Below are positions 2 through 58,066 of a DNA stretch of 64,000 bases, one piece after another. The position numbers and the translations under genes are program-made. The notes below the pieces were generated by a model. The model was not told where the DNA came from and did not search any database. It worked only from the letters and a program-made list of their open reading frames with translations. This DNA comes from Polyporus tsugae (lineage: Eukaryota; Basidiomycota; Agaricomycetes; Polyporales; Polyporaceae): positions 1,054,001 through 1,118,000 of the forward strand of contig JAHRBS010000009.1 in NCBI GenBank assembly GCA_024305745.1, written 5' to 3'. Each line of letters opens with the position of its first letter. The first letter of the stretch is position 1.

Positions 2-2089
2 ATGCTACTCACCTTGAATAATCAAGGCTTCACTATCAGCTCCGATGCGACTTCAAACCGCCACACAGATTACATTGGTCGTCATATGGCGATCCGTGCG
101 CCTGACTACTCTGCCGAACCACCCGCAATGGCCACGACCTCGAGCTCTTCCCATCCCGCAATGCCGAAGAACCGCCTCCTCGGTGTCGAGTCATCCGTCA
201 ACCACACAAGTGAGACACAGGTTGAGGCCTGGAAGGTGAAGTTTCAACAGCTCGTTGATGCATTCAACAGGTCACCACTGGCACGAAGACTGAGAGTTGT
301 ACTCACCGTTGAAGACTGCGCAATCAAGTTGAAGGGAGTTGGTGGTGACCATGCTGCTGATCAGCTCAAGACGACAAGGCTCCTGGGAGAATGGAAGAAA
401 GAGTCAACTTACCTTGTGCTCGCCTGGGACGAACTCGGATCCCGACATCCCACGCCGCAACCCACGCCGGCGCTGGAGCGTGTCATCACCGCTGCCACGA
501 CAGACGCAGTTCTAGGAGCCGGAGGGCCGGACGCCTGGGCAGCGCTTCCATCCAAGGAGCAGATCTCGCGCTACAACAAACACCTCAATCGGTTGACCAT
601 CGCACTGGGGAAGGACCTACATGATGCTCTTCCTTCCGAGGAGCAGCGCCGTCTAGACCTCTTCCTCCGTATGGGATGCGCGATGCACAAGGAGCTCAAC
701 AGCTTCAAGGGTGGTAATGCGGCGATGATGGCGGCCTGGGCTGAGCTAGAGACAACACCGCCAGTTCTCCTTGCCAACCGAGAGAACACGTCGACGCTCA
801 GGGACGTCAATACGCAAGCCCTTGCTATCCTGCTCCCTGCGGAGATGCCACTTGACGGTCTGACGGCGGCGGAGCTACGCGCGCTGTCAACATCTGCTCG
901 TGGGGGTGCTAAGCTCACAGGTCTTGGAGGCGCGGTCTTCAATCACAAGGACGACAAGAAAGGGCAACAAGACACGTACGTTTTCTACTGGATGGAGATT
1001 GTCGGGCTGCCGCGGCGATACCCAGACACCAGCAACATGCGGTACTTTACCCACGGTGAAGCTGCTTGCGAGCTGCTCGCGAACCACGGCCACTACCTTC
1101 GCTTCTTGGTTGTTGTGCGCGATCGGAAAGAGCGGCCGAGGTGGAGCCATCTCGAGGAGAACGTGGTGGCGGGGCTCCAGGACGATCCAACGCTAACGGA
1201 GCTTGCGGCCATGGCATTCTACGACCAGGTCGTAACGCAGCCCTATCTTCGGGCCACTCGAGTACTGCAAAACAGTTTGAAGCTCGGCCCATATCACGAT
1301 CGACTCAAAACGCACCTTCAGTCCATCATAGACAACCCTGATCTTCTTCTCGGACCTGATGCCACAGCTCAAAAAGCGACCTTGGACGGGGAAGACTGGC
1401 AGCGCCCGGACGCCCTGAAGGCAATACAGACAACTTTGGCTCACCGGATGCCTCATCTGAGGTACATTGTCATCGCTTTCTTCAAGGGTGCCCTGCGGAC
1501 CTGGGAAACCTTCACGAAGGAGTTCGAGAAGGGTGGCGCGATTGACCAGAGCACTGAGAAGGAGCTCGACGAGGCTTGGATATTCGCTACCAATGATGCA
1601 AACGAGGGCGCGCTCGGCCTCCTTCGCCAATGGCTCCGTGCGAATCCATTTGGCACCGAGCTGTACTACAACTCCCTTCAGAAGTGCGCGCAGAACAACA
1701 CCGAAGCGTTCATGCATGCCCACTTCACAGATGAGGACTACAAGTACATCCGAGGTGAGGCGCGCGCGCTCGACGACAGCGGTATGGAGAAGGTCCGCCG
1801 TAAGGCACAAGTCGAGGAAGCCATTGCGAATGCGGACCAGACGGCGCGCGAGCGAGAAGAGCGGGAGCGGCGAGAACAGGAGGCAGCTAGGAAGGTGGCG
1901 GAGACGGAGCTGGTCATCGAGCGGGCCACGATCGAGGGGATGACCAAAGCTCAGTTGGAGGAGCAGTTGGAAGTCCATCGGAAGCGTTTCAAAGATGCCG
2001 ACGTCCCGTTGAAGTCGAAGATCCCGAATCGCCCTCAGAAGCTCGAGGCGTTGCTGGCGGCCGTGGAGCGGTATCGGACGCGCGCATAG
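2..2089 (+). CDS. Hypothetical protein of a multicopy agaricomycete family (possible transposon-related protein)
   Basis: A single open frame of 695 codons ends at TAG 2087-2089. The first ATG lies at base 2, so the true start may be outside the window; internal Met codons near residues 29 and 43 are alternatives. I recognise the pattern from a large agaricomycete family of unknown function: a 'GCAMHKELN' segment around residue 225, 'FNHKDDKKGQQDT' near 312, 'NDANEGALGLLRQ' near 535 and 'NNTEAFMHAHF' near 570. The end (about 600-695) is a charged, Arg/Glu-rich helix followed by a short helical 'QLEEQLEVHRKRFKDADVP' repeat-like tail. No signal peptide or membrane segment is seen. The His- and Asp/Glu-containing conserved blocks would suit a transposase-like fold, but I cannot name one. 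It is intact while its neighbours are mostly broken. The frame is well supported; the function is not. Confidence 0.75.
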   Translation: MLLTLNNQGFTISSDATSNRHTDYIGRHMAIRAPDYSAEPPAMATTSSSSHPAMPKNRLLGVESSVNHTSETQVEAWKVKFQQLVDAFNRSPLARRLRVVLTVEDCAIKLKGVGGDHAADQLKTTRLLGEWKKESTYLVLAWDELGSRHPTPQPTPALERVITAATTDAVLGAGGPDAWAALPSKEQISRYNKHLNRLTIALGKDLHDALPSEEQRRLDLFLRMGCAMHKELNSFKGGNAAMMAAWAELETTPPVLLANRENTSTLRDVNTQALAILLPAEMPLDGLTAAELRALSTSARGGAKLTGLGGAVFNHKDDKKGQQDTYVFYWMEIVGLPRRYPDTSNMRYFTHGEAACELLANHGHYLRFLVVVRDRKERPRWSHLEENVVAGLQDDPTLTELAAMAFYDQVVTQPYLRATRVLQNSLKLGPYHDRLKTHLQSIIDNPDLLLGPDATAQKATLDGEDWQRPDALKAIQTTLAHRMPHLRYIVIAFFKGALRTWETFTKEFEKGGAIDQSTEKELDEAWIFATNDANEGALGLLRQWLRANPFGTELYYNSLQKCAQNNTEAFMHAHFTDEDYKYIRGEARALDDSGMEKVRRKAQVEEAIANADQTAREREERERREQEAARKVAETELVIERATIEGMTKAQLEEQLEVHRKRFKDADVPLKSKIPNRPQKLEALLAAVERYRTRA

Positions 2090-10200: not shown

Positions 10201-11013
10201 ATGTCCACAGCCTACCACCCGCAGACAGATGGGTAATCGGAACGATGGAACCAGGAGATAGAGGTGTACCTTCGTATGTTCTGCTCACGGCGCCGCGATG
10301 ACTGGGTCAAGTGGCCGCTGATTGCAGAGTTCGCCTTTAACTCACACCAGCACTCGTCAACGGGTTACTCGCTGTTCTACCTCATGTACAGCTACGAACC
10401 CCAGTTCCACATTCCGATGTTGCCTACGGTGGTGCCTGCAGATGATGAATGCCGGGAGGAGTTGCAACAGGCGCGAGAGGATGCAACTGCGGCCTTAACT
10501 CTAGCAGCTGAGTGGATGAAGGAGTACTATGATTGGTATGTCCATGATGCTCCAGAGTTCAAGGAAGGCCAGAAGGTGTGGCTCAACGCGAGGAACTTCT
10601 GTGTTCCTGGAGTCTCTCGGAAACTGGTGGATCAGTACGCTGGCCTGTATCCGGTTGTACGCAAGGTGGGCAATCTGGCTTACGAGCTCAGACTCCCCAA
10701 GGACCTTGTAATCCACCCCGTATTCCACGTCTCTCTCCTGCTTCCCCACAAGGAGAGTCGACTCCCCGGTCATCACCCGGCAGAGCCAGCGGCAATTGAG
10801 GTGGAGGGGGAGGAAGAGTACGAAGTGGAGGAAGTGTTGGAGTCGCGGTGGTATGGGCGGTGGAAGAAACTGCAGTACCTCGTACACTGGAAGGGTTGGG
10901 GCCCTGAACAAGACAGCTGGGAGGATGCAGTGGACCTTACAAACGTGCCGCAACTTGTGCAGAAATTCCATTCAACGCATGCAGAGGCGCCTGGTCCTCT
11001 CAAGAAGACTTAG
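7262..11013 (+). pseudogene. Pol of gypsy G1: protease, RT, RNase H, integrase, chromodomain
   Basis: One frame runs from the slippery site to TAG 11011-11013 and is interrupted by TGA 7816-7818, TGA 8512-8514, TAG 9634-9636 and TAA 10234-10236. Domains in order: aspartic protease with DSGAT (7429-7443); RT with 'FFFVKKKDGSLRPVQDY', 'LDICWGYNN' and 'YLNNILIF' (8629-8640, where YxDD is expected); RNase H 'EVDASGFATGAVLSQEG'; integrase HHCC (H…H near 9735-9765, 'CNTCRRSK'), 'CDFITGLP', 'ISDCGPQF' and 'SERWNQEIE' as DDE residues; and a chromodomain, 'LQYLVHWKGWGPEQDSWED'. The usual 'GYIQE' stretch before 'KSP' in the RT is missing, as in G4. It would have copied RNA to DNA and inserted it into chromatin; this copy cannot. 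Confidence 0.92.
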
Positions 11014-11032
11014 TCGTGAAGGCACGACCCTT

Positions 11033-11045
11033 AGGAGGGGGGTAT
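11033..11045 (+). other. Polypurine tract of G1
   Basis: AGGAGGGGGGTAT lies immediately before the 3' LTR, the usual plus-strand primer position. A similar tract precedes the LTR at 59405. Confidence 0.7.
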
Positions 11046-11489
11046 TGTCATGAATGTTCCATTCGGCGCCTGCTACCAGTGCCTTAGTTTCCTTTTTCGG
11101 ACGATCTACTTCTCACGTCGTACTTATTGTTCTCCGTTGCATTGTATCTCATCCTTTGTTCTTTAGCACAATAGCTCCTTATTGTCCACAGTCGCTATTG
11201 TTCTGTTTCCATTGTTCACCCATGTCCATAGTTACATATTGTCCCCGGGTTCTCATTATCCTCTATACGTATATAAGGACCTGTACTTCACTGCCTGGAG
11301 ACCTCAGTTTCGACCTCCTGTCTCCAGGTAAGCCTCGCTGTATTTCCCTTGTTAGTTACCTCACTCAATACATCTTGTCTCCAGCCCTGACCGTCGAGCC
11401 TTGCTCCGCTCTCACTGCACAAGTGCTTGTCGGCGCTCCTGCTCGTCTCGTAAGTCTCCCTGGTCCTTACTCGACGGCCAGTCGTAACA
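11046..11489 (+). repeat. 3' LTR of G1
   Basis: 444 bp, TGTCATG…CGTAACA, aligned end to end with 5032-5475. It retains the TATATAAG and the CCTGGAGAC/GTCTCCAGG hairpin. Confidence 0.93.
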
Positions 11490-11690
11490 CTCGAACAGCA
11501 CGGGTTCCTCATTATTGGCAAAGTACAGCATACCCTTCTTTGTGGTGTTCTTGATCCATTCGTGCAAAGGATACGCACGACTGGCCTCCTTCGCACGCGT
11601 GTACGCCATTTGTTTGACAAAAATTTGAGAACTGAAGTGGAAGGTGTGGATGTGGGTGAGTCCGTTCTGGAATTTCCGGCGCGCTTTCTT

Positions 11691-11938
11691 GTTAGGATGC
11701 AGTAATCATGCTTACTCATCCTTCAGGAGTTGGTCCCTGAACTGCCATAAGACCCCTCAATGTACTGTACATAGCATGCATGCCGTAGTGACATGGGGCT
11801 ACAGTTACACTGATCTACACTAATAAACTGGTGTCTCTACTGAACCCAAGACCAGATAGCTCAGTGGTAGAGCATCTGGGTGCAAATCAGAAGGTCCTGG
11901 GTTCAATCTCTGGTCTGGTCACTTTTTCACTGCTAATA
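11691..11938 (+). mobile_element. tRNA-Cys-bearing short mobile element, copy 1
   Basis: A 248-bp unit beginning GTTAGGATGCAGTAATC and ending CACTGCTAATA, bounded by the direct repeat TTTCTT (11685-11690 and 11939-11944). It is almost identical to 23153-23401, with about two or three differences. The last third is a tRNA-Cys-like gene followed by a T-run. The first 159 bp have no ORF and no resemblance to a LINE tail. The tRNA part is at the 3' end, the reverse of ordinary tRNA-derived SINEs. The ends share TTAG in inverted orientation. Confidence 0.85.
11850..11920 (+). tRNA. tRNA-Cys-like (anticodon GCA) inside the short element
   Basis: A cloverleaf is visible: acceptor GACCAGA/TCTGGTC (7 bp), D arm GCTC/GAGC with loop AGTGGTA, anticodon stem TCTGG/TCAGA with loop GTGCAAA (anticodon GCA), and T loop TTCAATC on a weak wobble-rich stem. 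The A box TAGCTCAGTGG is good. The B box GGTTCAATC is slightly off consensus. TTTTT at 11923-11927 would stop RNA polymerase III. No intron, no encoded CCA. Probably an element-carried promoter rather than a decoding tRNA. Confidence 0.7.
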
Positions 11939-12178
11939 TTTCTTGCCGGGGTTGAACTTGTTGACCGTCTTGAGGTACTCCTCAAATACCTGTAATATGT
12001 CAGTGTTTGTTAGGTAAATGCTGAATGAATCCCACGCACCACTTGTGCCTGCCACAATGACTTATTATGTGTTGTGTCCGTGACACATGTAAACCGACAT
12101 AAGTTATTAGGAATCATCTGACAACTCCAGATGAGTGACTCTGGTGTTGCGGAGAAAATGAGGTACTGAGGTACTCAC

Positions 12179-16299: not shown

Positions 16300-16726
16300 T
16301 GTTGAAGTCGGTGCTGTAGCGTGCGCTCGTTTGACCGCGCCAAGTCCCGCTTTGTACCATACATACTACATACTGTACCCTACCCTCTGGTATTTCCCAC
16401 ATTCCTAGATTCCGCGTTCTCATAGAGATATGCCATACTCTTACTCAATGACTCGGTTTAGTGTAGATCTGATCCCCTCTCTGGAGTGGACTCTACCTTA
16501 GGCATTTCTCATCCTTTCAGCGCCAGAACAGCGCCAGTTCGTGTAGGATCATGTAAGCTACCTAGCACGTGCTCAGTGCGCTGTCACCTCGCCTCTGTTG
16601 AGCTCTGTGGTCCTTAGACTTCTTAGAGCTCAACTTAGGTGAGTAGTTTAGCTTCCTGTTAATGTAAGACTTCTTAGAGCTCGACTTAGGCCATTGTGAC
16701 CGCTCTGAGGCGCACTGCAGCCAACA
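16300..16726 (+). mobile_element. Solo LTR of copia family C2 with 5-bp duplication
   Basis: 427 bp, TGTTGAAGTCGG…CAGCCAACA, flanked on both sides by AATGC (16295-16299 and 16727-16731). It matches 57639-58066 in the same sense and 44497-44923 and 52678-53094 in the opposite sense. The exact duplication shows an ordinary insertion later reduced by LTR recombination. Confidence 0.92.
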
Positions 16727-22166: not shown

Positions 22167-23152
22167 TCAGCGCCAATCACACCGGCCAATGTCATTAAAG
22201 TAGCTATGCTTTGCTGCAACATCTAGTGATATGCGCTCAGCTGGATTGAGCGCCATGAGCTTCCGAAGCAAGTCCACTAGCTGAGAATCATGCATGTCAG
22301 CCTAGACAATCAAGCTGTTAGCATATCTGGCATGCGCTATGGAGAGAACGCAAGGACGTACCAACAGAGGCCTCATATGCGCAAGGCAGCACATAGGCAC
22401 ACCATGACTGGCATGCATTGGGGCAGTATCCAAGGAGGGAAAGTGGACCTTGATGTCGTTATCGTCGAGGTTGAATGTGCGCGGAAAATGTGTGTCGATC
22501 GTCTGGGCATACACCCTTGGGAAAGGCCCCAAAACACGATCTAGTGCAGCTAGATGTTCTCTGTCGGAGCTTATGTCGCCCGAGAAGAGCTGGTTGCCAA
22601 GATATATCTCGGCAATGACACACCCTACTGCAAACACATCATGCCAAACCTCCACGGAAGACCTGTTTCAAAATGTGGGCTCCAACAAGCTTGCAACTAC
22701 ATGTACTACGACTGCGACATACCAAGAGTGACCTCCGGAGACCTATATGACCGGACCCCTACTCTGCTGGAGTGTGACGGTGCAGATGATGTGGTCGCAG
22801 CACCCAAATCAAGTACGCATATCTGGGTGGTGACAAGGATCTTCTATGTGGCCATATCAAGCTCACACAAGGTGAAGATATGGGGTAGACAGACTTACCT
22901 TCTCTTTGAAACCCGCTATAGGGCTCAGCCAGCGGATTGTCATCGTAGCTTGATCGCGGACCACTATATTGTCTAGCTTGAGATCAGTGTGAATAATTCC
23001 GAGAGAGTGGAGATCTAGAGTGCATCAGAAGATACACTACGACACAGCGCATATAGGTAGGACTTACAGTCTACTGCATTGACGAGTTGGTACGTGATCT
23101 CGAGGATGTGTTGAGCTGAAAATGGGAGGAGACCCAAGGACCCCTTAAACAT

Positions 23153-23401
23153 GTTAGGATGCAGTAATCATGCTTACTCATCCTTCAGGAGTTGGTCCCT
23201 GAACTGCCATAAGACCCCTCAATGTACTGTGCATAGCATGCATGCCGTAGTGACATGGGGCTACAGTTACACTGATCTACACTAATAAACTGGTGTCTCT
23301 ACTGAACCCAAGACCAGATAGCTCAGTGGTAGAGCATCTGGGTGCAAATCAGAAGGTCCTGGGTTCAATCTCTGGTCTGGTCACTTTTCCACTGCTAATA
23401 G
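23153..23401 (+). mobile_element. tRNA-Cys-bearing short mobile element, copy 2
   Basis: 249 bp, nearly identical to 11691-11938. Direct repeat AACAT at 23148-23152 and 23402-23406. Inserted antisense to the kinase gene, in its coding exon. The T-run after the tRNA is TTTT here against TTTTT in copy 1. Confidence 0.85.
23312..23382 (+). tRNA. tRNA-Cys-like (anticodon GCA), copy 2
   Basis: Identical in sequence to 11850-11920, with the same cloverleaf and weak T stem. TTTT at 23385-23388 is a minimal polymerase III terminator. Confidence 0.68.
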
Positions 23402-24190
23402 AACATATCGTAAAGGGTAGCGCCACAGAGTTCGAAGACGATACAGTGGAAACCGCGATGCATACCAGTAGAGATGACTTCAGCAAAGAGCCTACGTAAG
23501 AATACTGTCATTAATCCATGTCCACACAGACTAAGTTGCAAAAAAAATATACTCAATACGTGGGTCACACCCAGCGAGTAGGGCACGATAGATGTCCTCT
23601 TCACATCGCGCATCTTCATTTAACTCTGTGTCCTTGTGAAGGAGTTTGATTGCGACCGTGGTTTCAGTAATAATATCCTCAGTGAGGATGACGGTCCCAA
23701 AGCCACCTTGGCCAAGTTTGCTGCGTACACAATCTAGAGGTGATGTAAGAATTAGGGATGCGGCACTGACGATGCGACATACACTTCTTCATGAGTAAGT
23801 CATCCTTCGTGAGAGAATATTGTCTGTAAAAACGTCTGAGTCATGAGTGAGTGTTGCTGTCTCAATCTGAGGACTCACAGTGCAAGTAGATGCCCAACCG
23901 ATGGGGGGTCGTACGGCATCACTAGCGAGCCCACGCAAGGCAGTTTCTGCGGGGGGTGTCGAGGAGACGTGTCACTCTTCTGCTCCTCACCTGTGCGTGC
24001 AGCTTCATATCCTTCATATGCGTTGACCACAGCAAATATCGAATGTATGACTTACGAGGGTGCCGGGCAGACAGCCTGCAGATTGGGCCTCACAGAGGAA
24101 GACAACTCGGGTGCATGATCTCGTGTAGATCGCATAGACTCCATGTTCAGTTTTGAAGACGAGTAGAGTTGCATAGTTCCTCTTCTCGGA

Positions 24191-32093: not shown

Positions 32094-32121
32094 AGCCGCT
32101 TGTAGAGATTTTGTCGGAAGA

Positions 32122-32424
32122 TGTGGGGCAGTGGCCTAGCGGGACACAGACTCAGTCTGGTGCACGGAGTGACAACAGCTATAATATAAATTATCTAGCA
32201 GGACACGGACTGTAAAGTACATGTCAGTACCAACTAGTATGAATAGCTAATGAAGTTCTTACCTCAGTCTGGTGCACGGAGTGACAACAGCTGAGGAAAG
32301 ATGAGCAGGAAAATGTGTCGAGAAGGAGCGTCAGTGGTATAAACAGAACCAAACAAGTTGTCGGCGCCTACTACGTAGTACGTCCGTATCCGATGAACGT
32401 ACAACTAACTATCATATTTCAACA
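32122..32424 (-). repeat. 3' LTR of C1
   Basis: 303 bp; on the minus strand TGTTGAAATATG…CCCCACA. Confidence 0.9.
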
Positions 32425-32498
32425 CACCCACTCAGTGGATGTAGGTATGTACGTACGAGTAGCATAAATAAGAGAATAGGAAACTAAAGAAAACTGTC

Positions 32499-35400
32499 CT
32501 ACTGCAAGCCCAAACCAGCGCAGAAGGTCTCGTGCTTCCAGTGCGGGAGAGCCTTGATGAGAACATCAGCAACCTGGTCACCAGTCGGCACGTACGTGTA
32601 CCGAATGCGACCCTCTTCAAGCTCATCGCGGATGAAGTGGTGTCAAACAGCGATGTGCTTCGTCCAGTCGTGGAACTCAGCATTCTTCGCGAGGGCCATG
32701 GCGGACTGGTTGTTGACAAGGAGCAGTGTACCCGAGGGATCATCGCCGCGAGCGTCCGAGTCACTATGTGCGTCGAATGTCGTGCCGAAAATCTCGGACA
32801 GGAACGTCCGGATCCAGAGGGCATCCTTGGTGGCAGCACACATCGCGACGTACTCAGCCTCGGTGCTCAAGAGGGCGACCGAGGTCTGCTTCTTTGACTG
32901 CCAGCTGACTGCAGCATTGGCAAGCAGGAAGACATACCCGGACACCGAGCATCGGTCGTTGACGTCGGCAGCCCAGTCCGCGTCGACGTAACCCAGCAGC
33001 GAGCCGTCGTTCTGGGGCGAAGGTGCACCGTCGAAGACGAGAGGGCGAGATGACGTACCACGGAGGTACTTGTACACGCGCATGAGCGCAGTCCAGTGGT
33101 CCTGGCTTGGGCAAGCGGCGAACTTGCTGAGTGCGCCCACTGCATACAACAGGTCGGGACGTGTCCCAAGCATCGCATACATGACGGAGCCGAGCGCGCT
33201 CTGGTAGGCCTTGACGTCGACCTCAGGGACATCGACCTTCTCGAGCTTCTGGTTGGCGGCCATTGGCGTTGAGACTGGAGCGCAGTTCGCCATGCCATGG
33301 CGGGTGAGAATATTCTCGATGTACTGTTGCTGGGTCAGTGCGAGTGTGCAACGACTGCGGTCGTGAGTGAGCTCCATGCCGAGCATCCAGTGGGCCTCGC
33401 CAAGGTCAGTCATCTCAAAATGAGCCTCGCAGTCGGCCTTGAGGCGGTCGACCATGTCCTTGTCGTCCGAGAGGATGAGCATGTCGTCGACATAGAGTGT
33501 GACAATGATGAGCTTGCCATCTTCCGGCTTGTAGAAGACAGCGTGGTCGGCGTTGCTGCAAGTGAAGCTGAGCAACTCAAAGTGCTCGCGCACCTTCTTG
33601 TACCACTCATGGCTGGCCTGCTTGAGTCCGTAAAGTGACTTACCAAGCTTCCAGACCTTCGACGTGTCAGTGCGGAAGCCTGGAGGGATCTCCATGAAGA
33701 TCTCCTCGTCTAAGTCGCCGTTCAGGAAGGCGGACTTGACGTCCATCTGGTGGACCTCGAGGTCGTGCTTGGCAGTGAGCGCGAGGAGGATGTGGATGCT
33801 GGGGAATTTTGTGACGGGTGCAAATGTCTTGTCAAAATTGAGGTACTTGACCTGGGTAAAGCCTTGGGCAACGAGTCGCGCCTTGTACTTCTGGATCTCG
33901 CCGTCGGGTCCTCGTTTGATCCTGAAAACCCACTTGCAGCCGACTACCTTGCGGTGCCAAGGACGCTCCACTTCGTCATAGAGCTCAGCCTTGGCAAACG
34001 AGAGGAGCTCTTCAGCACATGCCGCCTTCCACTGTTCAGCGTCAGGACGGGACATGGCTTCCGCGTACAACCGCGGCTCGTTGCCGAGGGTCAATGCATG
34101 GTGAGCGTGTTCATCGTTGTCATTGTTGTCGTCCGCCTCAGCCATCGGACCCTCCCCTCTAGCGGCAGCAGCGTTGCGCTGGTTGTAGGACAAGAGCTTG
34201 TAGACGGAGTCGTTCTCGAGGTAAGTCCGAGCGGTGCGATCGCGCATTGAGCGACAGACTTCTGGTGCTGGAATAGGATGGGGGTACGGCCCCGGGACTC
34301 GAGAGGCAGGAACTCGGTGAGGACGCGGCGGCTCGGCCGCAGGCGCATGGGGAATGTGAGGAGGTGTTGGTGAGCGGCGAGGAAGTGGAGGGAGAGGGAT
34401 GTCGACCTCATCGTCCTCGAGGACAGGAGAGGCGGTGCGGCTCTCATCCTCATCAGGCACTGTCTCAACCATGACAGGGTGCTTGTGTGGAGGAGCGGGA
34501 GGGTCAGCCTGCACGCGCGCAAAGAAGTTGTCGGACTCATCGTCGTCGGAGTGCTCTGGAAATGCAGGCTCCGTGTTGACTACAATGCACGTTGGGACAC
34601 CACCTGAGAGGCCTTCGTCGAAGATGACATCGCGCAACTCGATGATCTTGCCCGTTGGCCTGTGAAGAAGGTGGTACGCACGCCTGTGCTCGGAGAAGCC
34701 AATGAGTACACACTCAAGGGACTTTGCATCGAGTTTCTTCCGCTTGTTGTCCGGGATGTGGACAAATGCCTTGCAGCCGAATGGGCGGATGTGCACAACT
34801 GATGGCTTGATGCCTGTGTATGCCTCGTGCGGTGTGATGTCTCCGTCGAGTGCACGAGTTGGCGTTCGGTTGAGGATGTAGATGGCGTAGGCCGTCGCCT
34901 CCGGCCAGTGTGACTTGGGAATGTCAGCATCCTCGAGCATCGAGCAAGCCATCTCCATGATTGTCCTGTTGGCACGCTCCGCAATCCCGTTCTCCTGAGG
35001 TGTGTCAGTGTTCGACCTCTCGTGGTGGATGCCCCGTCGCTTGCAGATGTCAATGATGTCCTCGTTGACGTACTTGCCACCACCGTCGGACCGCAGGATG
35101 TTGACTGGTTCTCCAATTGCGACCTCGATGCGGTTGACATGCGCGTCGAAGTTGGCAGCTTGGTCAGACTTCGCCTTGAGCGGGACAGCAGAGATGTGCT
35201 GTGAGTACCAGTCGATGTAGGTGTCGAGGTACTTCTCGCCAGATTGTGCGCGGACGTTGAGCTCCATGAGATCGGAGCTGATGCAGTAGTTGGGGCGAGG
35301 AGCCGTGGCCGTGGTCTCCTTCGGAATCTCGTCACGTATCTGCTTGCCAGCGGGACACGGTGTGCAGGGCTCGCGTGGAGGCTTCGATGGGCCGAGGAGC

Positions 35401-36926
35401 AACATCCCCTTGACCATACCCTTGCAGACCATCTGGATGACGGTGTCGACGCCAAGATGTCCCAGACGGTGATGCCAGGTCTTCACGGTTGCCTTTGACT
35501 CATTAGCAATGAACGCGTCGAGGCTGGCCGGTGTTGGACTGGGGTCGAAGTGCGTTGGGATGGTGTCCATAGGGAGCTGTGCAACGTGCGCATGATCGGG
35601 TGCGGCAGCCATCCCCTTGAGGACGTAGAGACCATTGGTTAGCGTCGCTCTGCCAAGGAGCTTGCCATCCCTGCCAGAGATGTTGCATCCCTGTGTGTCG
35701 AACGTGACAGTGTGGCCTCTCTCGACAAGGGCAGAGACAGATGCGAGGTTGCCGTGGAGTTCGGGGATTTGGTAGACGCGCGTGAAGAGCGCAGGCTGTG
35801 TGATGGAGCCCTCCCCTTCAAGATCGAGGTACATGGAGCCAACGCCAGTTGCAAGGATGTAGCAGTCGTCTCCGAGCCAGACACACTTTGGCTCAGCAAG
35901 AGCGCGGTACGTGTCAAACTTTGCGCGCTGCGAGGACATGTGTGAGGACGCGCCGGAGTCGACGATCCAACGCACGACGTTGGACTCGGTTGCAGCCTTC
36001 ATCGCATCAGCGACGTAGATGCGTAGGAGCGTGTCGTCCGTGCTGTCCGCCGCAGCGACCTTCGCGTTGAGGTCACCGGAACCTGACGGCGCTGTGTTCT
36101 TTGCCTTGGCCTCCAGCTCGGCTTTGAGCTTTTGACACTCGTCCTTGACATGCCCAGTGTAACCGCAATGGTCGCACTTCTTCTTCGGCTTGTTGCTGTC
36201 CGACTTCCCGTTGGACTTGCCCTTGGGCTTGTCCTTGGTCTTGTTCAATGACAGTCCGGTCTTGGACGTCCGAGCGAGGAGTGCTGACTGCTTCGACGAT
36301 GTGTTGAACAGCTTCTTGTGCTCGCAGATGGACGAGATGACCTTGTCCGTTGTGAGAGCGGTGTCGGAGGACATGAGGATGGCGCAAAGGGTGTCGAATG
36401 ATGGAGGGAGCAAGACGACCATAGCGATGGCAACGAGAGAGTTGTCGATGGTCTGGCCAAGCGAGGAGAGGATATGCTTCTTGTGGAGCATGGCATCGAG
36501 TTGCGGACGGAGGGGGGAATCATCGGAGAGCGTGCCTCGGAAGAGCTCACCGATGAGAGACGCAATGGTCTGCTTTCCCTTCCCCTCATACATTGTTGCG
36601 AGCTTCGACCATGCCTCTGTCGATGTCGTAAGGTGCATGCAGGCAGCGAGTGGATCGTCCTCGAGCATGAGGGTGATCTGCGTGAATGCAATCTCTTCAC
36701 GTAAGAGCCAGTCCTCACTTCCGCCCTGGTTGACAGCAGGGTCTGGATGAGTTTCTGTGCCATCGACAATTTTCCAGAGTTTGCGCTGTATGAGGATGCG
36801 TTGGATTCGGAATTTCCATATTGTATAGTTCGAGCCGTCGTCCTTGAGAAAAGAGACATCGTACAGATGATTGGAAAGGCTAGGCACTGAGGTGGCCGTT
36901 CCAGGGAGTGGGACCATGTGAGCCAT
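32499..36926 (-). pseudogene. Gag-Pol polyprotein of copia C1, one premature stop
   Basis: Open from ATG 36926 for 1,427 codons to TGA 32643-32645. The same frame continues for about 48 codons of the normal C-terminus to TAG 32501-32499, so the TGA is probably a former CGA. Domains: Gag with UBN2-like region; CCHC 'CDHCGYTGHVKDEC' (residues 251-264); protease DSGASSHM (323); GAG-pre-integrase 'WHHRLGHLGVDTVIQM'; integrase with 'DLMELNV', 'RSDGGGKYVN' and 'GIAERANRT'; a Pro-rich linker; RT 'WVFRIKRGPDGEIQKYKARL' and 'LYVDDMLILS'; and RNase H 'YVDADWAADVNDR'. All catalytic residues I can see are present. The lost tail is the end of RNase H, so activity is doubtful but not excluded. Confidence 0.92.
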
Positions 36927-37040
36927 CAGGGAAGAAGCGAGGAAGGGATGCTGAAATGAATGAATAGAGTTTAACGAGCTGTGAGTGCTTTGGAAGCGTA
37001 GTGTGCATAGAATGAATGTTCCTGGGTGCTAGTTTGCGAG

Positions 37041-37056
37041 CCCAGGGCTCATAACC
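37041..37056 (-). other. Primer binding site of C1 (half-tRNA type)
   Basis: GGTTATGAGCCCTGGG is complementary to the anticodon stem-loop of initiator tRNA-Met (…GGGCTCATAACC…), the internal priming used by several copia elements. Confidence 0.65.
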
Positions 37057-37066
37057 GGTCAGAAGA

Positions 37067-37369
37067 CGTGGGGCAGTGGCCTAGCGGGACACGGACTCAG
37101 TCTGGTGCACGGAGTGACAACAGCTATAATATAAATTACCTAGCGGGACACGGACTGTAAAGTACATGTCAGTACCAACTAGTATGGATAGCTAATGAAG
37201 TTCTTACCTCAGTCTGGTGCACGGAGTGACAACAGCTGAGGAAAGATGAGCAGGAAAATGTGTCGAGAAGGAGCGTCAGTGGTATAAACAGAACCAAACA
37301 AGTCGTCGGCGCCTACTACGTAGTACGTCCGTATCCGATGAATGTACAACTAACTATTGTATTTCAACA
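37067..37369 (-). repeat. 5' LTR of C1
   Basis: 303 bp; its plus-strand start is CGTGGGG where the other LTR has TGTGGGG. Confidence 0.9.
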
Positions 37370-44496: not shown

Positions 44497-44923
44497 TGTT
44501 GGCTGCAGTGCGCCTCAGAGTGGTCACAATGGCCTAAGTCGAGCTCTAAGAGGTCTATCATTAACAGGAAACTAAAGTACTCACCTAAGTCGAGCTCTAA
44601 GAGGTCTAAGGACAACAGAGCTCGACAGAGGCGAGGTGACAGCGCGCTGAGCACGTGCTAGGTAGCTTACATGATCCTACACAAACTGGCACCGTTCTGG
44701 CGCCAAAAGGACGAGAAATGCCTAAGGTAGAGTGCACTCTAGAGATAGGATCAGATCTACACTAAACCGAGTCATTGAGTAAGAGTATGGTATATCTCTA
44801 TGAGAACGCAGAATCTAGTGATGTGGGAAATACCAGAGGGTAGGGTACAGTATGTAGTATGTATGGTGCGAGGCGGGACTTGGCGCGGTCAAACGAGCGC
44901 GTGCTACAGCACCGACTTCAACA
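44497..44923 (-). repeat. Copia C2 LTR (minus), between G3 and Gb
   Basis: 427 bp TGTTGGCTGCAG…CTTCAACA. The flanks (GGTAG and CACAG) do not match. It cuts about 60 bp from the outer end of the Gb 3' LTR. Probably the 3' LTR of the minus-strand copia whose 5' LTR and gag are at 51854-53094. Confidence 0.85.
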
Positions 44924-51853: not shown

Positions 51854-52479
51854 CCAGGCTGGTTTTTGAGTGCAATGAACATCTCCTGGAGCTTGTCCAG
51901 CATCAGGGAGTCGTCGAGGAGCAGGGTCTGGTGCAGGGAGGTGTATTCCACAGGCAGAGCATGGATGAGGGCCATGAGGATGAGCTCGTCATTGAGCTGG
52001 GTGATGGAGAAGGTGGCAGGACGAAGGGCCTTCTTGTCTGACTTGAGCTGGACTGCTCGCATCGACAGGGATGACAGGGACTCGTCCTCACTCTTGCAGA
52101 GGCTCAGGAGCGCGTTGTAGGTGTTAAACCTCGTACCTGGTCGCTTCTGCATGTGCACAGACTCCAGCTTCACCCACATGGCAACAGGATCGTCCCTGAT
52201 GGCCTCCAGGTGCATCTGCTGCTCCCTCTCCACACAACTCCATAACTCCCCAGCTGCCAAATCCACCCTGTTGTCGAAATCGCGCAAATCATGTCGTTCT
52301 CCAGCATCCAGGGGTGCGACGAAGGCAGGCCTGGTCTCAGTACCCTGGATGATGCGCAGGGCACCGAGGATGCGAAGCCTGGCCTCCATGTCGAGTCGCC
52401 ATTGCTGGTAGTTGCGATTGGAGAGCTTGGGGAAGGTTGCAGCGGGTGGCGCCATGGTGGAGGGGTGGTGACGTGGCAC
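51854..52479 (-). pseudogene. N-terminal Gag fragment of a minus-strand copia C2
   Basis: Reads from ATG 52479 (or 52455, 'MAPPAATFPKLSNRNYQQWR') through a UBN2-type gag domain to '…LKNQPG', where the Gb LTR begins. Residues about 58-208 duplicate the start of the plus-strand copy at 53095. Confidence 0.88.
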
Positions 52480-52677: not shown

Positions 52678-53094
52678 TGTTGGCTGCAGTGCGCCTCAGA
52701 GCGGTCACAATGGCCTAAGTCGAGCTCTAAGAAGTCTATCATTAACAGGAAACTAAACTACTCACCTAAGTCGAGCTCTAAGAAGTCTAAGGACAACAGA
52801 GCTCGACAGAGGTGAGGTGACAGCGCACTGAGCACGTGCTAGGTAGCTTACATGATCCTACACAAACTGGCGCTGTTCTGGCGCCGAAAGGACGAGAAAT
52901 GCCCAAGGTAGAGTGCACTCTAGAGATAGGATCAGATCTACATTAAACCGAGTCATTCAGTAAGAGTATGGTATATCTCTATGAGAACGCAGAATCTAGC
53001 GATGTGGAAAATACCAAGAGGGTAGGGTACAGTACGCAGTATGTATGGTACGAAGCGGGACTTGGCGCGGTCAAAGGAGCGCGCGCTACAGCAC
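52678..53094 (-). repeat. 5' LTR of minus-strand copia C2, 11 bp short
   Basis: Matches the C2 LTR in reverse. The first 11 bp (TGTTGAAGTCG) are missing at the junction with plus-strand gag. Confidence 0.88.
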
Positions 53095-56000
53095 ATGCTG
53101 GAGAACGACGTGATTTGCGCGATTTCAACAACAGGGTGGATTTGGCAGCTGGGGAGCTATGGAGTTGTGTGGAGAGGGAGCAGCAGACACACCTGGAGGC
53201 CATCAGGGACGATCCTGTTGCCATGTGGGCGAAGCTGGAGTCTGTGCACATGCAGAAGCGACCAGGTACGAGGTTTAACACCTACAATGCGCTCCTGAGC
53301 CTCTGCAAGAGTGAGGACGAGTCCCTGTCATCCCTGTCGATGCGAGCAGTCCAGCTCAAGTCAGACAAGAAGGCCCTTCGTCCTGCCACCTTCTCCATCA
53401 CCCAGCTCAATGACGAGCTCATCCTCATGGCCCTCATCCATGCTCTGCCTGTGGAATACACCTCCCTGCACCAGACCCTGCTCCTCGACGACTCCCTGAT
53501 GCTGGACAAGCTCCAGGAGATGTTCATTGTGCTCGAAAACCAGCCTGGTGCCTTGTCGTCGACCCCAGCCCTCTCCAATGTCGCGTCGCAGGTATCCTGC
53601 ACATTCTGCGGTCGCCCCAACCACTCGGAGGACCAGTGCTTCAGCAAACACAATGCCAGCGCAAAGGCGAAGGACAGGATGACCCAGCGCACCCAGTTTC
53701 GCTCCCAGCACAACCAGCGCAAGCAGGAGGCCTCTGAGGCCTCCAGCTCATCGAACACCGCATCTGGGACACAGACCAAACCCCAGGAATCCGCTGGGGC
53801 AGCCACTGTGAGTGCTGGTTGTGCCTCTGCCCTCCTCTCAGCCTCAGATCGCTCGTCCTGGCTCTCCACCCCTGCTGCTGCTAACTGGAACACCGACACA
53901 GGTGCTTCTGCACACATGACACCCCACCGCTACTGGTTTCGCTCCTACTCGCCTCACACCATCCCCATTCGACTCGCCAACTCGCACATCGTCTACTCGG
54001 CGGGTTTAGGGTCTGTGGTGTTCCAGCCTGAGGAGAGGGGCGGCGTTTTACCACCTTCTGTTGTACTACACGACGTCTTGCACGTCCCTGCGCTTGCTAG
54101 CAATCTACTGTCTGTTTTCCACCTCACGCGCGAGAAGGGCTACACTGTCGAGTTGCGCGCATCCTCTGCGCTGTTCTACCACCAGGGGAAGCTTCGCTTT
54201 GAGGCCCAGGTCAATGCGCACAACGTGGGCTACCTCCTTGGTCGCACTATCCCCCAATCGATGACTGCACTCTCTGCATCGACCACCAGCAATGAGGACC
54301 TCGCCCTGTGGCACCAGCACTGCTCACACGTCAACCTCGACGATCTGCGCTCTGCAATTCGCAAGGAGCTTGTCCAAGGGCTCAGGATCCGCTCCCAGCG
54401 CGCACCTGATGCGATTTGCAAGCCCTGCCTTGCTGGCAAGCTCAAACGCCATCCCATCCCTCGCTTTGCCTCCAGGAGGTTCGTTCGCCTGGCCCTGGTC
54501 CACACCGACCTCAAGGGCAAGCTCCCAGTGCGCACCGCTGAGGGCTACCAGTACTGGATGGTCTTTGTCGACGACGCGACGCGATTCTGGGCCATGGCTT
54601 ACCTCAAGCTCAAGAGCGACGCCTTTGCTGCGTTCAAGGCGTTCAAGGCATATGCTGAGAACTGCCTAGGCCTGCGCATCAAGGCCACACGCAATGACAA
54701 GGGCGGCGAGTACATGGGCCAGGAGTTCATTGACTACTGTGCAGAACATGGCATCCACAGGCAGCACACAGAACCAGACGAGCCCCACCAGAATGGCGTC
54801 GCAGAGCGAGCTAACAGGACGACGTCTGAGGGTGCCACCACTCTCCTTGCACAGGCCAAGCTGCCTCCTTCGTTCTGGGGCCATGCTGTCTCTACCTTTG
54901 TCCACACACGCAACCGCATGCCCACCTCTGCACTCGATGGTGGCATCCCCTACACCGCTTGGAAGGGCGATGGGCGCAAGTCTGACGTGTCCTACTTCCG
55001 CGTCTTTGGGTGCCTGGCCTATGTCCTTATTCGCAAGAAGGATCGCAAAGCGCTGCAGCCACACACAAGGAAGTGCATCTTTATTGGCTACCCGGAGGGC
55101 ACAAAAGCCTGGCGATTCTGGGACCCTGCTGCGAAGAAGATCATCATCTCGTCGCATGCTGTGTTTGACGAACAGTGCTTCCCAGGCAACTCGCCCTTCA
55201 TCAATGTCTTTGGCCTGCCCCTCGACGATGTGGACGTCCCTGGAGCGCCCTCTGACGCAGACGCACCACCTCAGGACGATGCCCCAGATGTGCCAGAGCT
55301 GCATGATCAGGGGGGAGATGACGACTGGGATGATCCTGCACCTCCTGCACCTCCTGCGCCGCAAATTGCACCCCCACCAGCTGCACCACCGCGTCAGCAG
55401 TCCCCACAGCGTTCACCATCTCCACCTGCGCCTTTGCCTCCTCGTGCGCAACCTCCTGCGCCTCCACAGGCTCCTCCACGCGCTCCAGCCATCGCTCATG
55501 CGCCTCCATCACCGCCTCCTGCCCCTGCAGTTCGTCCTCAGGCACCATCGATCCACCAGCAGGCCCAAGGCGACGGTGGCTTCAGGCCCTACCCTGCACC
55601 TGCTCGCAAACAGCTCCCATCGTGCTCTTCTCGCTACCAGGGTTCCCTCAACAACAGAGAGCTTGAACGCCAGAACCTCGTTCCACAGCGTCTTCGCATT
55701 CGCTCTGCATCACCTGCTCCACCTGCTGCGTCGCCTGAACCACCACAGCGCGACTCCTCCTCGCCAGATCCCCTTATCAACACACCAGTCGACAACCAAG
55801 CTCCCCCACCTCGTGCCAATCCCTTTGCTCCTCGCTCCATGTCGCCCCCACCGAGTCCCACGTCCTCAGACGACGAACTCGACTGCCTAGGTCGCGACGA
55901 TGGCAGTGATGAAGATGCACTCCATGCGATGATGGCTGGCATCGAGGACGTCTACTCTGGCCAGCACTATGACTACCTGACCTACAATGAGGCTCTCGAG

Positions 56001-57623
56001 GTCGCATTCGAGTCTGTGGTCGAGCATGCGTTGAAGGCGAACCAGGAGCACTTGGGTGAGCCCAGGTCCATCGCAGAGGTCATGGAACTCGATGCAGATG
56101 AGCGTGCCAGGTGGCTCAAGGCTGCCCAGGATGAAATCCAGTCCCTCGTCGAGAATGGCACCTTCGAACTCGTCCTCCTCCCTCCAGGTCGCAAGGCTAT
56201 TGGCTCCCGCTGGGTCTTCCGCGTCAAGCGCAATGCAGACGGCTCCATCGAGCGGTATAAGGGTCGCCTCGTCGCAAAGGGCTTCTTCCAACGCCCCGGC
56301 TTCGAGTACAACGAGACCTTTGCTCCTACACCAAAGTGGGCGTCAATTCGAGCTATCCTCGCTCTCGCTGGGCTTGAGGACCTCGAGCTTGAGTCAGTGG
56401 ACATCTCCTCTGCCTACCTCAATGGCGAGCTCAAGGAGGAGGTCTACATGCGCCAGCCTGAGGGCTTTGAGGACAAGACTCCTGAGTGGGTGTGGCGCCT
56501 TCGCAAGGCTCTCTATGGCCTCAAGCAGGCTGGCCGCTGCTGGCATGAGAAGCTCGACGAGGTGCTTGGCAAGCTGGGCTTTGAGCGACTGACCTGTGAG
56601 CACAGTGTCTGGGTGTATCTGCGTGATGGGGTGCGTCTCATTATCCCTGTCTTCGTCGACGACATCACCATTGCTAGCAAGGACAAGGCTGCGATTCAGC
56701 GTGTCAAGGACGACCTGCGCAAGCACTTCAAGCTGCGCGACCTGGGGCCAACGTCGTGGCTCCTGGGTGTCAAGATTGAGCGCGACCGCTCCAAGCATTC
56801 CCTGTCGATCTCGCAGCGCCAGTATGCCCTCGACATCCTCGAGCGATATGGCTTCACCAACTGCGACCCAGTTAGCACCCCCATGGACCCTGGCCTCCGT
56901 CTCAGCGCAGACATGGCTCCAACGTCAAAGGCAGACATCCGTGAGATGCAGGACATTCCCTATGGCCAAGCGGTTGGTTCTCTCTTCTACCTCGCCGTTG
57001 CAACGCGCCCAGACATTGCTCGCACTGTTGGCAACCTCGCACGCTTCTCCCAGAACCCTGGCATGACACACTGGAAGGCAGTCAAGCACCTGTTCCGCTA
57101 CATCAAGGGCACACTGGACTACAAGCTCACCTACTCCCCCTCATCTGAGCCAGAGCTCTTCACCTCCTACACTGATGCAGACCACGCTGGGTGCCCTGAC
57201 ACAGGTCGCTCGACCTCTGGCTATGTGATCAAGATGGGCACAGGTGCAATTTCCTGGTCGAGTCGTCTTCAGTCCCTTGTCGCTCTGTCCACCACAGAGG
57301 CGGAGTTCATCGCTGCTGTCTCCTGTGGCCAGGAGATCCTCTGGTTGCGCAATCTGTTTACAGAGTTTGGGTTTGATGTTTCCTCTGCCTTGAAGCTTCG
57401 CATTGACAACCTGTCTGCGCTGTCTGTGGCGAAGAACCCTGAGCACCATGGGCGGATGAAGCACCTTGATCTGCGCTTCTACTGGCTGCGAGATGAGGTG
57501 GCCAAGGGTCGCATTGAGGTGGTCCATCTGCGCACCTCACACATGCCAGCAGACATCCTCACCAAGTCACTGCCCAGGCCAAAGGTGCTTGAGATGGTGA
57601 AGATGCTTGGATTGGGGACTTGA
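52968..57623 (+). CDS. Gag-Pol polyprotein of copia C2 (open, chimeric 5' end)
   Basis: 1,551 codons without a stop. The first 42 codons come from the antisense LTR; real Gag starts at 53095 ('AGERRDLRDF'), lacking about 57 N-terminal residues. Domains by approximate residue: gag 43-200; CCHC 'CTFCGRPNHSEDQC' 204-217; protease DTGASAHM 309; GAG-pre-integrase 'LWHQHCSHVNLDDLRS'; integrase 'HTDLKG' 511, 'NDKGGEY' 576 and 'GVAERANRT' 612; Pro-rich linker 770-1000; RT 'GSRWVFRVKRNADGSIERYK' and 'VFVDDITIAS' 1230; RNase H 'YTDADHAGCPDTGRSTSG' 1401; and tail 'HMPADILTKSLPRPK'. All catalytic residues look intact. Without its own 5' LTR and primer site it could act only if expressed from elsewhere. 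Confidence 0.92.
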   Translation: MVYLYENAESSDVENTKRVGYSTQYVWYEAGLGAVKGARATAHAGERRDLRDFNNRVDLAAGELWSCVEREQQTHLEAIRDDPVAMWAKLESVHMQKRPGTRFNTYNALLSLCKSEDESLSSLSMRAVQLKSDKKALRPATFSITQLNDELILMALIHALPVEYTSLHQTLLLDDSLMLDKLQEMFIVLENQPGALSSTPALSNVASQVSCTFCGRPNHSEDQCFSKHNASAKAKDRMTQRTQFRSQHNQRKQEASEASSSSNTASGTQTKPQESAGAATVSAGCASALLSASDRSSWLSTPAAANWNTDTGASAHMTPHRYWFRSYSPHTIPIRLANSHIVYSAGLGSVVFQPEERGGVLPPSVVLHDVLHVPALASNLLSVFHLTREKGYTVELRASSALFYHQGKLRFEAQVNAHNVGYLLGRTIPQSMTALSASTTSNEDLALWHQHCSHVNLDDLRSAIRKELVQGLRIRSQRAPDAICKPCLAGKLKRHPIPRFASRRFVRLALVHTDLKGKLPVRTAEGYQYWMVFVDDATRFWAMAYLKLKSDAFAAFKAFKAYAENCLGLRIKATRNDKGGEYMGQEFIDYCAEHGIHRQHTEPDEPHQNGVAERANRTTSEGATTLLAQAKLPPSFWGHAVSTFVHTRNRMPTSALDGGIPYTAWKGDGRKSDVSYFRVFGCLAYVLIRKKDRKALQPHTRKCIFIGYPEGTKAWRFWDPAAKKIIISSHAVFDEQCFPGNSPFINVFGLPLDDVDVPGAPSDADAPPQDDAPDVPELHDQGGDDDWDDPAPPAPPAPQIAPPPAAPPRQQSPQRSPSPPAPLPPRAQPPAPPQAPPRAPAIAHAPPSPPPAPAVRPQAPSIHQQAQGDGGFRPYPAPARKQLPSCSSRYQGSLNNRELERQNLVPQRLRIRSASPAPPAASPEPPQRDSSSPDPLINTPVDNQAPPPRANPFAPRSMSPPPSPTSSDDELDCLGRDDGSDEDALHAMMAGIEDVYSGQHYDYLTYNEALEVAFESVVEHALKANQEHLGEPRSIAEVMELDADERARWLKAAQDEIQSLVENGTFELVLLPPGRKAIGSRWVFRVKRNADGSIERYKGRLVAKGFFQRPGFEYNETFAPTPKWASIRAILALAGLEDLELESVDISSAYLNGELKEEVYMRQPEGFEDKTPEWVWRLRKALYGLKQAGRCWHEKLDEVLGKLGFERLTCEHSVWVYLRDGVRLIIPVFVDDITIASKDKAAIQRVKDDLRKHFKLRDLGPTSWLLGVKIERDRSKHSLSISQRQYALDILERYGFTNCDPVSTPMDPGLRLSADMAPTSKADIREMQDIPYGQAVGSLFYLAVATRPDIARTVGNLARFSQNPGMTHWKAVKHLFRYIKGTLDYKLTYSPSSEPELFTSYTDADHAGCPDTGRSTSGYVIKMGTGAISWSSRLQSLVALSTTEAEFIAAVSCGQEILWLRNLFTEFGFDVSSALKLRIDNLSALSVAKNPEHHGRMKHLDLRFYWLRDEVAKGRIEVVHLRTSHMPADILTKSLPRPKVLEMVKMLGLGT

Positions 57624-57638: not shown

Positions 57639-58066
57639 TGTTGAAGTCGGTGCTGTAGCGTGCGCTCCTTTGACCGCGCCAAGTCCCGCTTCGTACCATA
57701 CATACTGCGTACTGTACCCTACCCTCTGGTATTTTCCACATTCCTAGATTCTGCGTTCTCATAGAGATATACCATACTCTTACTCAAATGACTCGGTTTA
57801 GTGTAGATCTGATCCCCTCTCTGGAGTGGACTCTACCTTAGGCACTTCTCGTCCTTTTGGCGCCAGAACGGCGCCAGTTCGTGTAGGATCATGTAAGCTA
57901 CCTAGCACGTGCTCAGTGCGCTGTCACCTCGCCTCTGTCGAGCTCTGTTGTCCTTAGACTTCTTAGAGCTCGACTTAGGTGAGTAGTTTAGTTTCCTGTC
58001 AATGATAGACTTCTTAGAGCTCGACTTAGGCCATTGTGACCGCTCTGAGGCGCACTGCAGCTAACA
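57639..58066 (+). repeat. 3' LTR of plus-strand copia C2
   Basis: 428 bp TGTTGAAGTCGG…CAGCTAACA, close to the solo LTR at 16300-16726. Confidence 0.92.

Follow-up and report, generated by a model that had tools for sequence, protein, structure and literature searches.

TRIMs that carry a tRNA-like sequence within their LTRs were described by Kojima in 2024 under the name Helenus (PMC10886601). In the text of that paper, their hosts are given as rusts, some Agaricomycetes, animals, and one plant; the fungal representatives generate 5-bp target-site duplications (TSDs) and are apparently mobilized by Copia retrotransposons, and some families consist only of fragments and solo LTRs, with no full-length copy kept. 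The sizes given there for Helenus elements do not exceed ∼1.3 kb. The same paper mentions the Cassandra TRIMs of plants, whose LTRs contain 5S rRNA sequence. A different kind of LTR is GlCEN427 of Ganoderma leucocontextum, the ∼427-bp LTR of autonomous Copia elements, which is found only in the predicted centromeres and in which the passages describing it report no tRNA (PMC10817607).

The window (the whole stretch of 64,000 nucleotides from Polyporus tsugae that was analyzed) contains two copies, C11a and C11b, of a short repeat that ends in a tRNA-Cys-like sequence (Table 1). They are 99% identical; an earlier note made from the sequence alone had called them nearly identical. That note started the unit at 11691 and made it 248 bp long; alignment of the copies with their flanks shows that every one of the 16 copies whose left end is intact has a T before this base, which gives a unit of 249 bp (11690-11938). 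The left terminus is TGTTAG in 13 copies and TATTAG in three (the C7 copies), and the right one is CTAATA. A search of the genome (43.2 Mb in 18 contigs, with copy counts being lower bounds) returned at least 17 copies with 95-100% identity, of which only C9 is 5'-truncated. When the 5' body and the tRNA were used as separate queries, both led to the same 17 places, so the two parts travel together. No distant relatives were recognized by the 5' end: a search that tolerated 3 mismatches retrieved nothing but the 16 copies that have this end intact. Among 16 copies, substitutions are more frequent per site in the tRNA part than in the rest of the unit (0.020 versus 0.012), and 20 of the 23 in the tRNA part are C-to-T or G-to-A. 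Neighboring copies have some substitutions in common, with a label-shuffle P value of 0.083 when C7a, C6a, and C9 are left out; accordingly, local hopping is not claimed.

Table 1. Features of the window related to the repeat unit and the CopB family
Feature	Position	Strand	Remarks
249-bp solo-LTR-like unit, copy C11a, TGTTAG...CTAATA	11690..11938	+	ends set by 16 copies with intact left ends
Left TSD of C11a, TTTCT	11685..11689	.	5-mer identical to the right one
Right TSD of C11a, TTTCT	11939..11943	.	5-mer identical to the left one
160-bp upstream part, expected U3 (role from the LTR model)	11690..11849	+	T-runs of ≤3 in all copies
tRNA-Cys(GCA)-like sequence, discriminator A	11850..11921	+	four stems paired, four G-U pairs
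3' tail, T5 (possible weak pol III terminator), then expected U5 end (role from the LTR model)	11922..11938	+	
Copy C11b, second copy of the unit	23152..23400	+	genome search, flank alignment
C11b left flank 5-mer, AAACA	23147..23151	.	4/5 match to the right flank
C11b right flank 5-mer, GAACA	23401..23405	.	4/5 match to the left flank
Paralogous empty site for C6b, gag end of Copia ORF	53107..53406	+	97% over 300 bp, ungapped
Second paralogous empty site for C6b	51996..52295	-	96%, ungapped
Paralogous empty site for C5a	10891..11186	-	88%, 3 gaps
Solo 427-bp CopB LTR, 5-bp TSD AATGC	16300..16726	+	
CopB ORF, 1551 aa, gag, integrase, and RT domains	52968..57623	+	candidate helper
3' LTR of the window CopB copy (family LTR, 427 bp)	57639..58066	+	

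The repeat is mobile. With the 249-bp ends, exact 5-bp TSDs flank 8 of the 15 distinct insertions (truncated C9 and C7a, a duplicate of C7b, being left out), and in two more, C11b and C1, four of the five flank positions agree; no good duplication was seen for the remaining five, C2, C6a, C7a/b, C5b, and C17. Shuffling of the right flanks (2,000 rounds) produced 0.6 exact duplications on average and 5 at most. The direct repeats initially noticed in the window, TTTCTT and AACAT, have to be replaced by TTTCT for C11a and by the imperfect pair AAACA/GAACA for C11b. The earlier note had inferred mobility, and one of the findings that it named as a refutation, copies confined to a segmental duplication, does not hold for the set as a whole: the flanks of C7a and C7b are identical across 1,500 bp on either side, and C6a and C6b have the right flank in common (99.9% over 1,500 bp). 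The flanks of many copies are repeats that also flank other copies. Searches with joined flanks, which covered the window and 15 loci, revealed three ungapped empty sites for C6b (96-97% identity; two in the window, one in locus L023) and four gapped ones for C5a (80-88%, with 2 to 5 gaps), as well as weaker ones for C16b (81-83%, 13 gaps) and C5c (75-77%).

The tRNA-like part, 72 nt long, was called tRNA-Cys(GCA) by ARAGORN in both window copies, which agrees with the initial identification. Its stem pairs are all standard (allowing for G-U) in 16 of the 17 copies, and 16 of 17 pass the Rfam tRNA cut-off; in that scan, 63 of 1,106 candidates were scored, and C17 was not among them. The top 11 Rfam tRNA scores all belong to copies of the element, with C5b the best at 72 bits; the window copies, at 57.3 bits, score lower than many host tRNAs. 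A B-box base is altered in two copies, C16b and C8, and the minimum single-sequence fold of the window copy's tRNA is not a cloverleaf. The genome encodes at least four host tRNA-Cys(GCA) genes separate from the element. The discriminator base is A in all 17 element copies and T in all four of these host genes (read by eye), so that no element copy carries the base expected of a functional tRNA-Cys here; U73 is a Cys identity base. Given this difference and an identity of only 0.64 between the element tRNA and the three host tRNA-Cys genes listed, the function of this part of the element is probably that of a promoter and not of a tRNA.

A search for the source of this sequence among 37 tRNAs of the genome (those called by ARAGORN in a sample of 38 of the 47 non-element Rfam matches plus one further match) did not identify one: tRNA-Ala(CGC) came closest, with 50 identities (0.68), compared with 47 (0.64) for tRNA-Cys. 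Contig C18 (129,900 bp) contains many tRNAs of mitochondrial look and is, judging by them, probably the mitochondrial genome. The run that follows the element tRNA is T4 in 16 of the 17 copies and T5 in C11a, and in none of the copies does a T-run in the upstream 160 bp exceed 3. A T4 run might permit read-through by pol III. It need not be a weak terminator here: among 28 sampled nuclear host tRNAs, the longest run within ∼20 nt was T4 in 7 and shorter in 11. Predictors of tRNAs will count the tRNA-like parts of this transposon as tRNA-Cys genes in this genome, given that nearly all copies pass the Rfam cut-off.

TG ends combined with a fixed 5-bp target duplication characterize LTR integrases, and for this reason a solo LTR is the best reading of the unit. 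Its termini are TG...TA in 13 copies and TA...TA in 3, compared with TG...CA in a canonical LTR; noncanonical LTR ends do occur. On these sequence features, the unit is very probably the solo LTR of a Helenus-type TRIM that carries a tRNA-like pol III promoter in its LTR. The earlier note saw no LTRs at this place and knew of no element with such an architecture. As it turns out, the unit itself resembles an LTR, and Helenus provides the precedent (PMC10886601).

Provided that the unit is an LTR, it resembles Helenus elements in enclosing a tRNA-derived sequence that has A and B boxes, and its TSDs are of the 5-bp size seen in fungal Helenus (exact at 8 of 15 insertions, with 4 of 5 bases alike at 2 and no good match at 5). 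Some Helenus families are likewise left only as solo LTRs, and Agaricomycetes are among the known hosts of the class (PMC10886601). In contrast to Helenus as described there, no internal region, PBS, or PPT was found here, and the tRNA-like part of the best copies is unusually intact. The terms Cys, GCA, centromer, Ganoderma, and Polyporales are all absent from the main text of PMC10886601. The unit probably adds a new member to Helenus, with an ordinary mechanism. With Cassandra it shares the presence of a pol III gene sequence in the LTR, although this is a tRNA rather than 5S rRNA and the host is a fungus rather than a plant. The genome search found no two-LTR copy (0 of 17), with the nearest copies of the same direction more than 10 kb apart, and no full-length copy with PBS and PPT among the at least 17 copies.

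If the element follows this scheme, pol III would initiate at the tRNA of the 5' LTR and read past the short T-run, and the RNA would cross a putative short internal region into the 3' LTR and end at the T-run of the second tRNA. A Copia reverse transcriptase, acting in trans, could then copy this RNA; strand transfer would restore the 160-bp upstream part at both ends from the 3' LTR, and the integrase would insert the product with a 5-bp duplication. Recombination between the LTRs would leave the 249-bp solo LTR. The solo-LTR reading explains how 160 bp are kept upstream of an internal pol III promoter: the RNA would start within the LTR, and the 3' LTR would regenerate the missing part.

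Other readings are less probable. One is a DNA element of the MITE type, with imperfect inverted ends of 6 bp (TGTTAG/CTAATA), that would have picked up a tRNA gene and owe its mobility to a transposase causing 5-bp target duplications. In its favor, the genome search found only single 249-bp units, and the three C7 copies even have perfectly inverted 6-bp ends (TATTAG...CTAATA). However, short TG ends with a 5-bp TSD suit LTR integrases, and no DNA transposon with the 5' end of the unit turned up in the search at up to 3 mismatches, which gave only 16 copies of the element itself; this origin is therefore improbable. Among the motors offered in the earlier note, namely read-through RNA, a DNA intermediate, and capture by a retrotransposon reverse transcriptase, the last one is rated the most likely.

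Even less can be said for a tRNA-derived SINE or another target-primed retroposon. The unit is short and has a pol III type promoter sequence, but, as the earlier note correctly pointed out, its tRNA is located at the 3' end. That end is fixed and lacks both an A-tail and a simple repeat, and all exact TSDs are 5 bp long, so the 5' tRNA head, the A-rich or repeat tail, and the variable TSD of SINEs are all missing; a SINE is hardly credible here. The same low probability applies to host tRNA-Cys genes spread via segmental duplication. Good tRNA scores, the GCA anticodon, and one copy pair that is a segmental duplicate are in line with it, whereas the copies have differing flanks with TSDs and empty sites, and the separate host tRNA-Cys genes differ in sequence and in the discriminator base.

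The Helenus-type solo LTR would depend on a helper, and the Copia family CopB was considered for this role. Its LTR is 427 bp long in the L023 copy and begins with TGTT; one full-length copy has the 5-bp TSD GGTAG at both outer ends (read by eye from L023 and L098), and 2 solo LTRs with 5-bp TSDs (AATGC and TTGAC) are present among the 14 near-complete LTRs listed. CopB carries a PBS motif that resembles the iMet anticodon-loop type, a reading made with the help of PMC10886601. The genome search found no CTAATA adjoining an iMet-type PBS, and the element has only words of 8-12 bases in common with the CopB or CopA LTRs, which for CopB amounts to nothing beyond TGTT and chance. The window contains four CopB LTR copies: the two listed in Table 1 and those at 44497-44923 and 52678-53094. 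Together with the Gypsy and Copia ORFs, they suggest a transposon nest, which is perhaps the centromere of this contig (C11).

The element occurs on 10 contigs, in each of them at a single site or in one cluster of no more than 27 kb. CopB, with 28 matches on 12 contigs, likewise occupies one region per contig, spanning at most 57 kb. For 16 of the 17 copies a CopB match is no more than 50 kb away, and the zone so defined comprises 3.2% of the genome. The exception, C8, is on a contig without a CopB match; for the two C11 copies the distance to such a match is 33 and 44 kb, and the CopB match near the C2 copy is only 72 bp long. Of 96 PBS-like motifs, which include some of CopB's own, 22 fall within the same 50-kb zone, as do 19 of the 40 scored matches (out of 94 candidates) of a Gypsy family. 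Fisher's tests show tighter confinement for the element than for the Gypsy family (P = 0.0009) and the PBS-like motifs (P = 3e-8); these P values are rough, as the 50-kb cut was chosen with the positions already in view, the copies are not all independent, and some are nested in CopB. CopA, intended as a location control, gave only 3 matches. This confinement to one site per contig is unusual and is the new feature of the element.

CopB resembles GlCEN427, by description, in being a Copia family with a 427-bp LTR and one region per contig, and because of this resemblance the single sites are perhaps centromeres (PMC10817607). CopB is the best candidate for the helper, at about even odds. Somewhat less than even odds are given to the view that the same Helenus-type element owes its confinement to survival in transposon nests, with a helper that is not necessarily CopB, which is compatible with the preferred reading. 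Many copies are indeed nested in other repeats, and the Gypsy family is enriched there too, although less strictly than the element. A bolder version, a pol III TRIM targeted to centromeres that rides on a centromeric Copia integrase and plants tRNA-type promoters there, appears rather unlikely. If it were true, TFIIIC/pol III sites in centromeres might serve as chromatin boundaries or promote transcription there. In any case, the repeat offers an example, open to testing, of a non-autonomous element that is restricted, along with one Copia family, to possible centromeres.

Contig C14 has nine PBS-like motifs across ∼440 kb, but in the genome search neither CopB nor the tRNA element matched it. 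CopA, a Copia element on the reverse strand of the window (32113-37357), has a 1427-aa open frame and 300-bp repeats that are 97% identical; its PBS motif is the same as that of CopB, and the genome search found only one other near-full match. By one protein match, the Polyporales host looks Ganoderma-like: a 695-aa frame at the start of the window (2-2089, forward strand) matches, at 83%, a Ganoderma adspersum protein annotated as hypothetical, and it has many relatives across Agaricomycetes.
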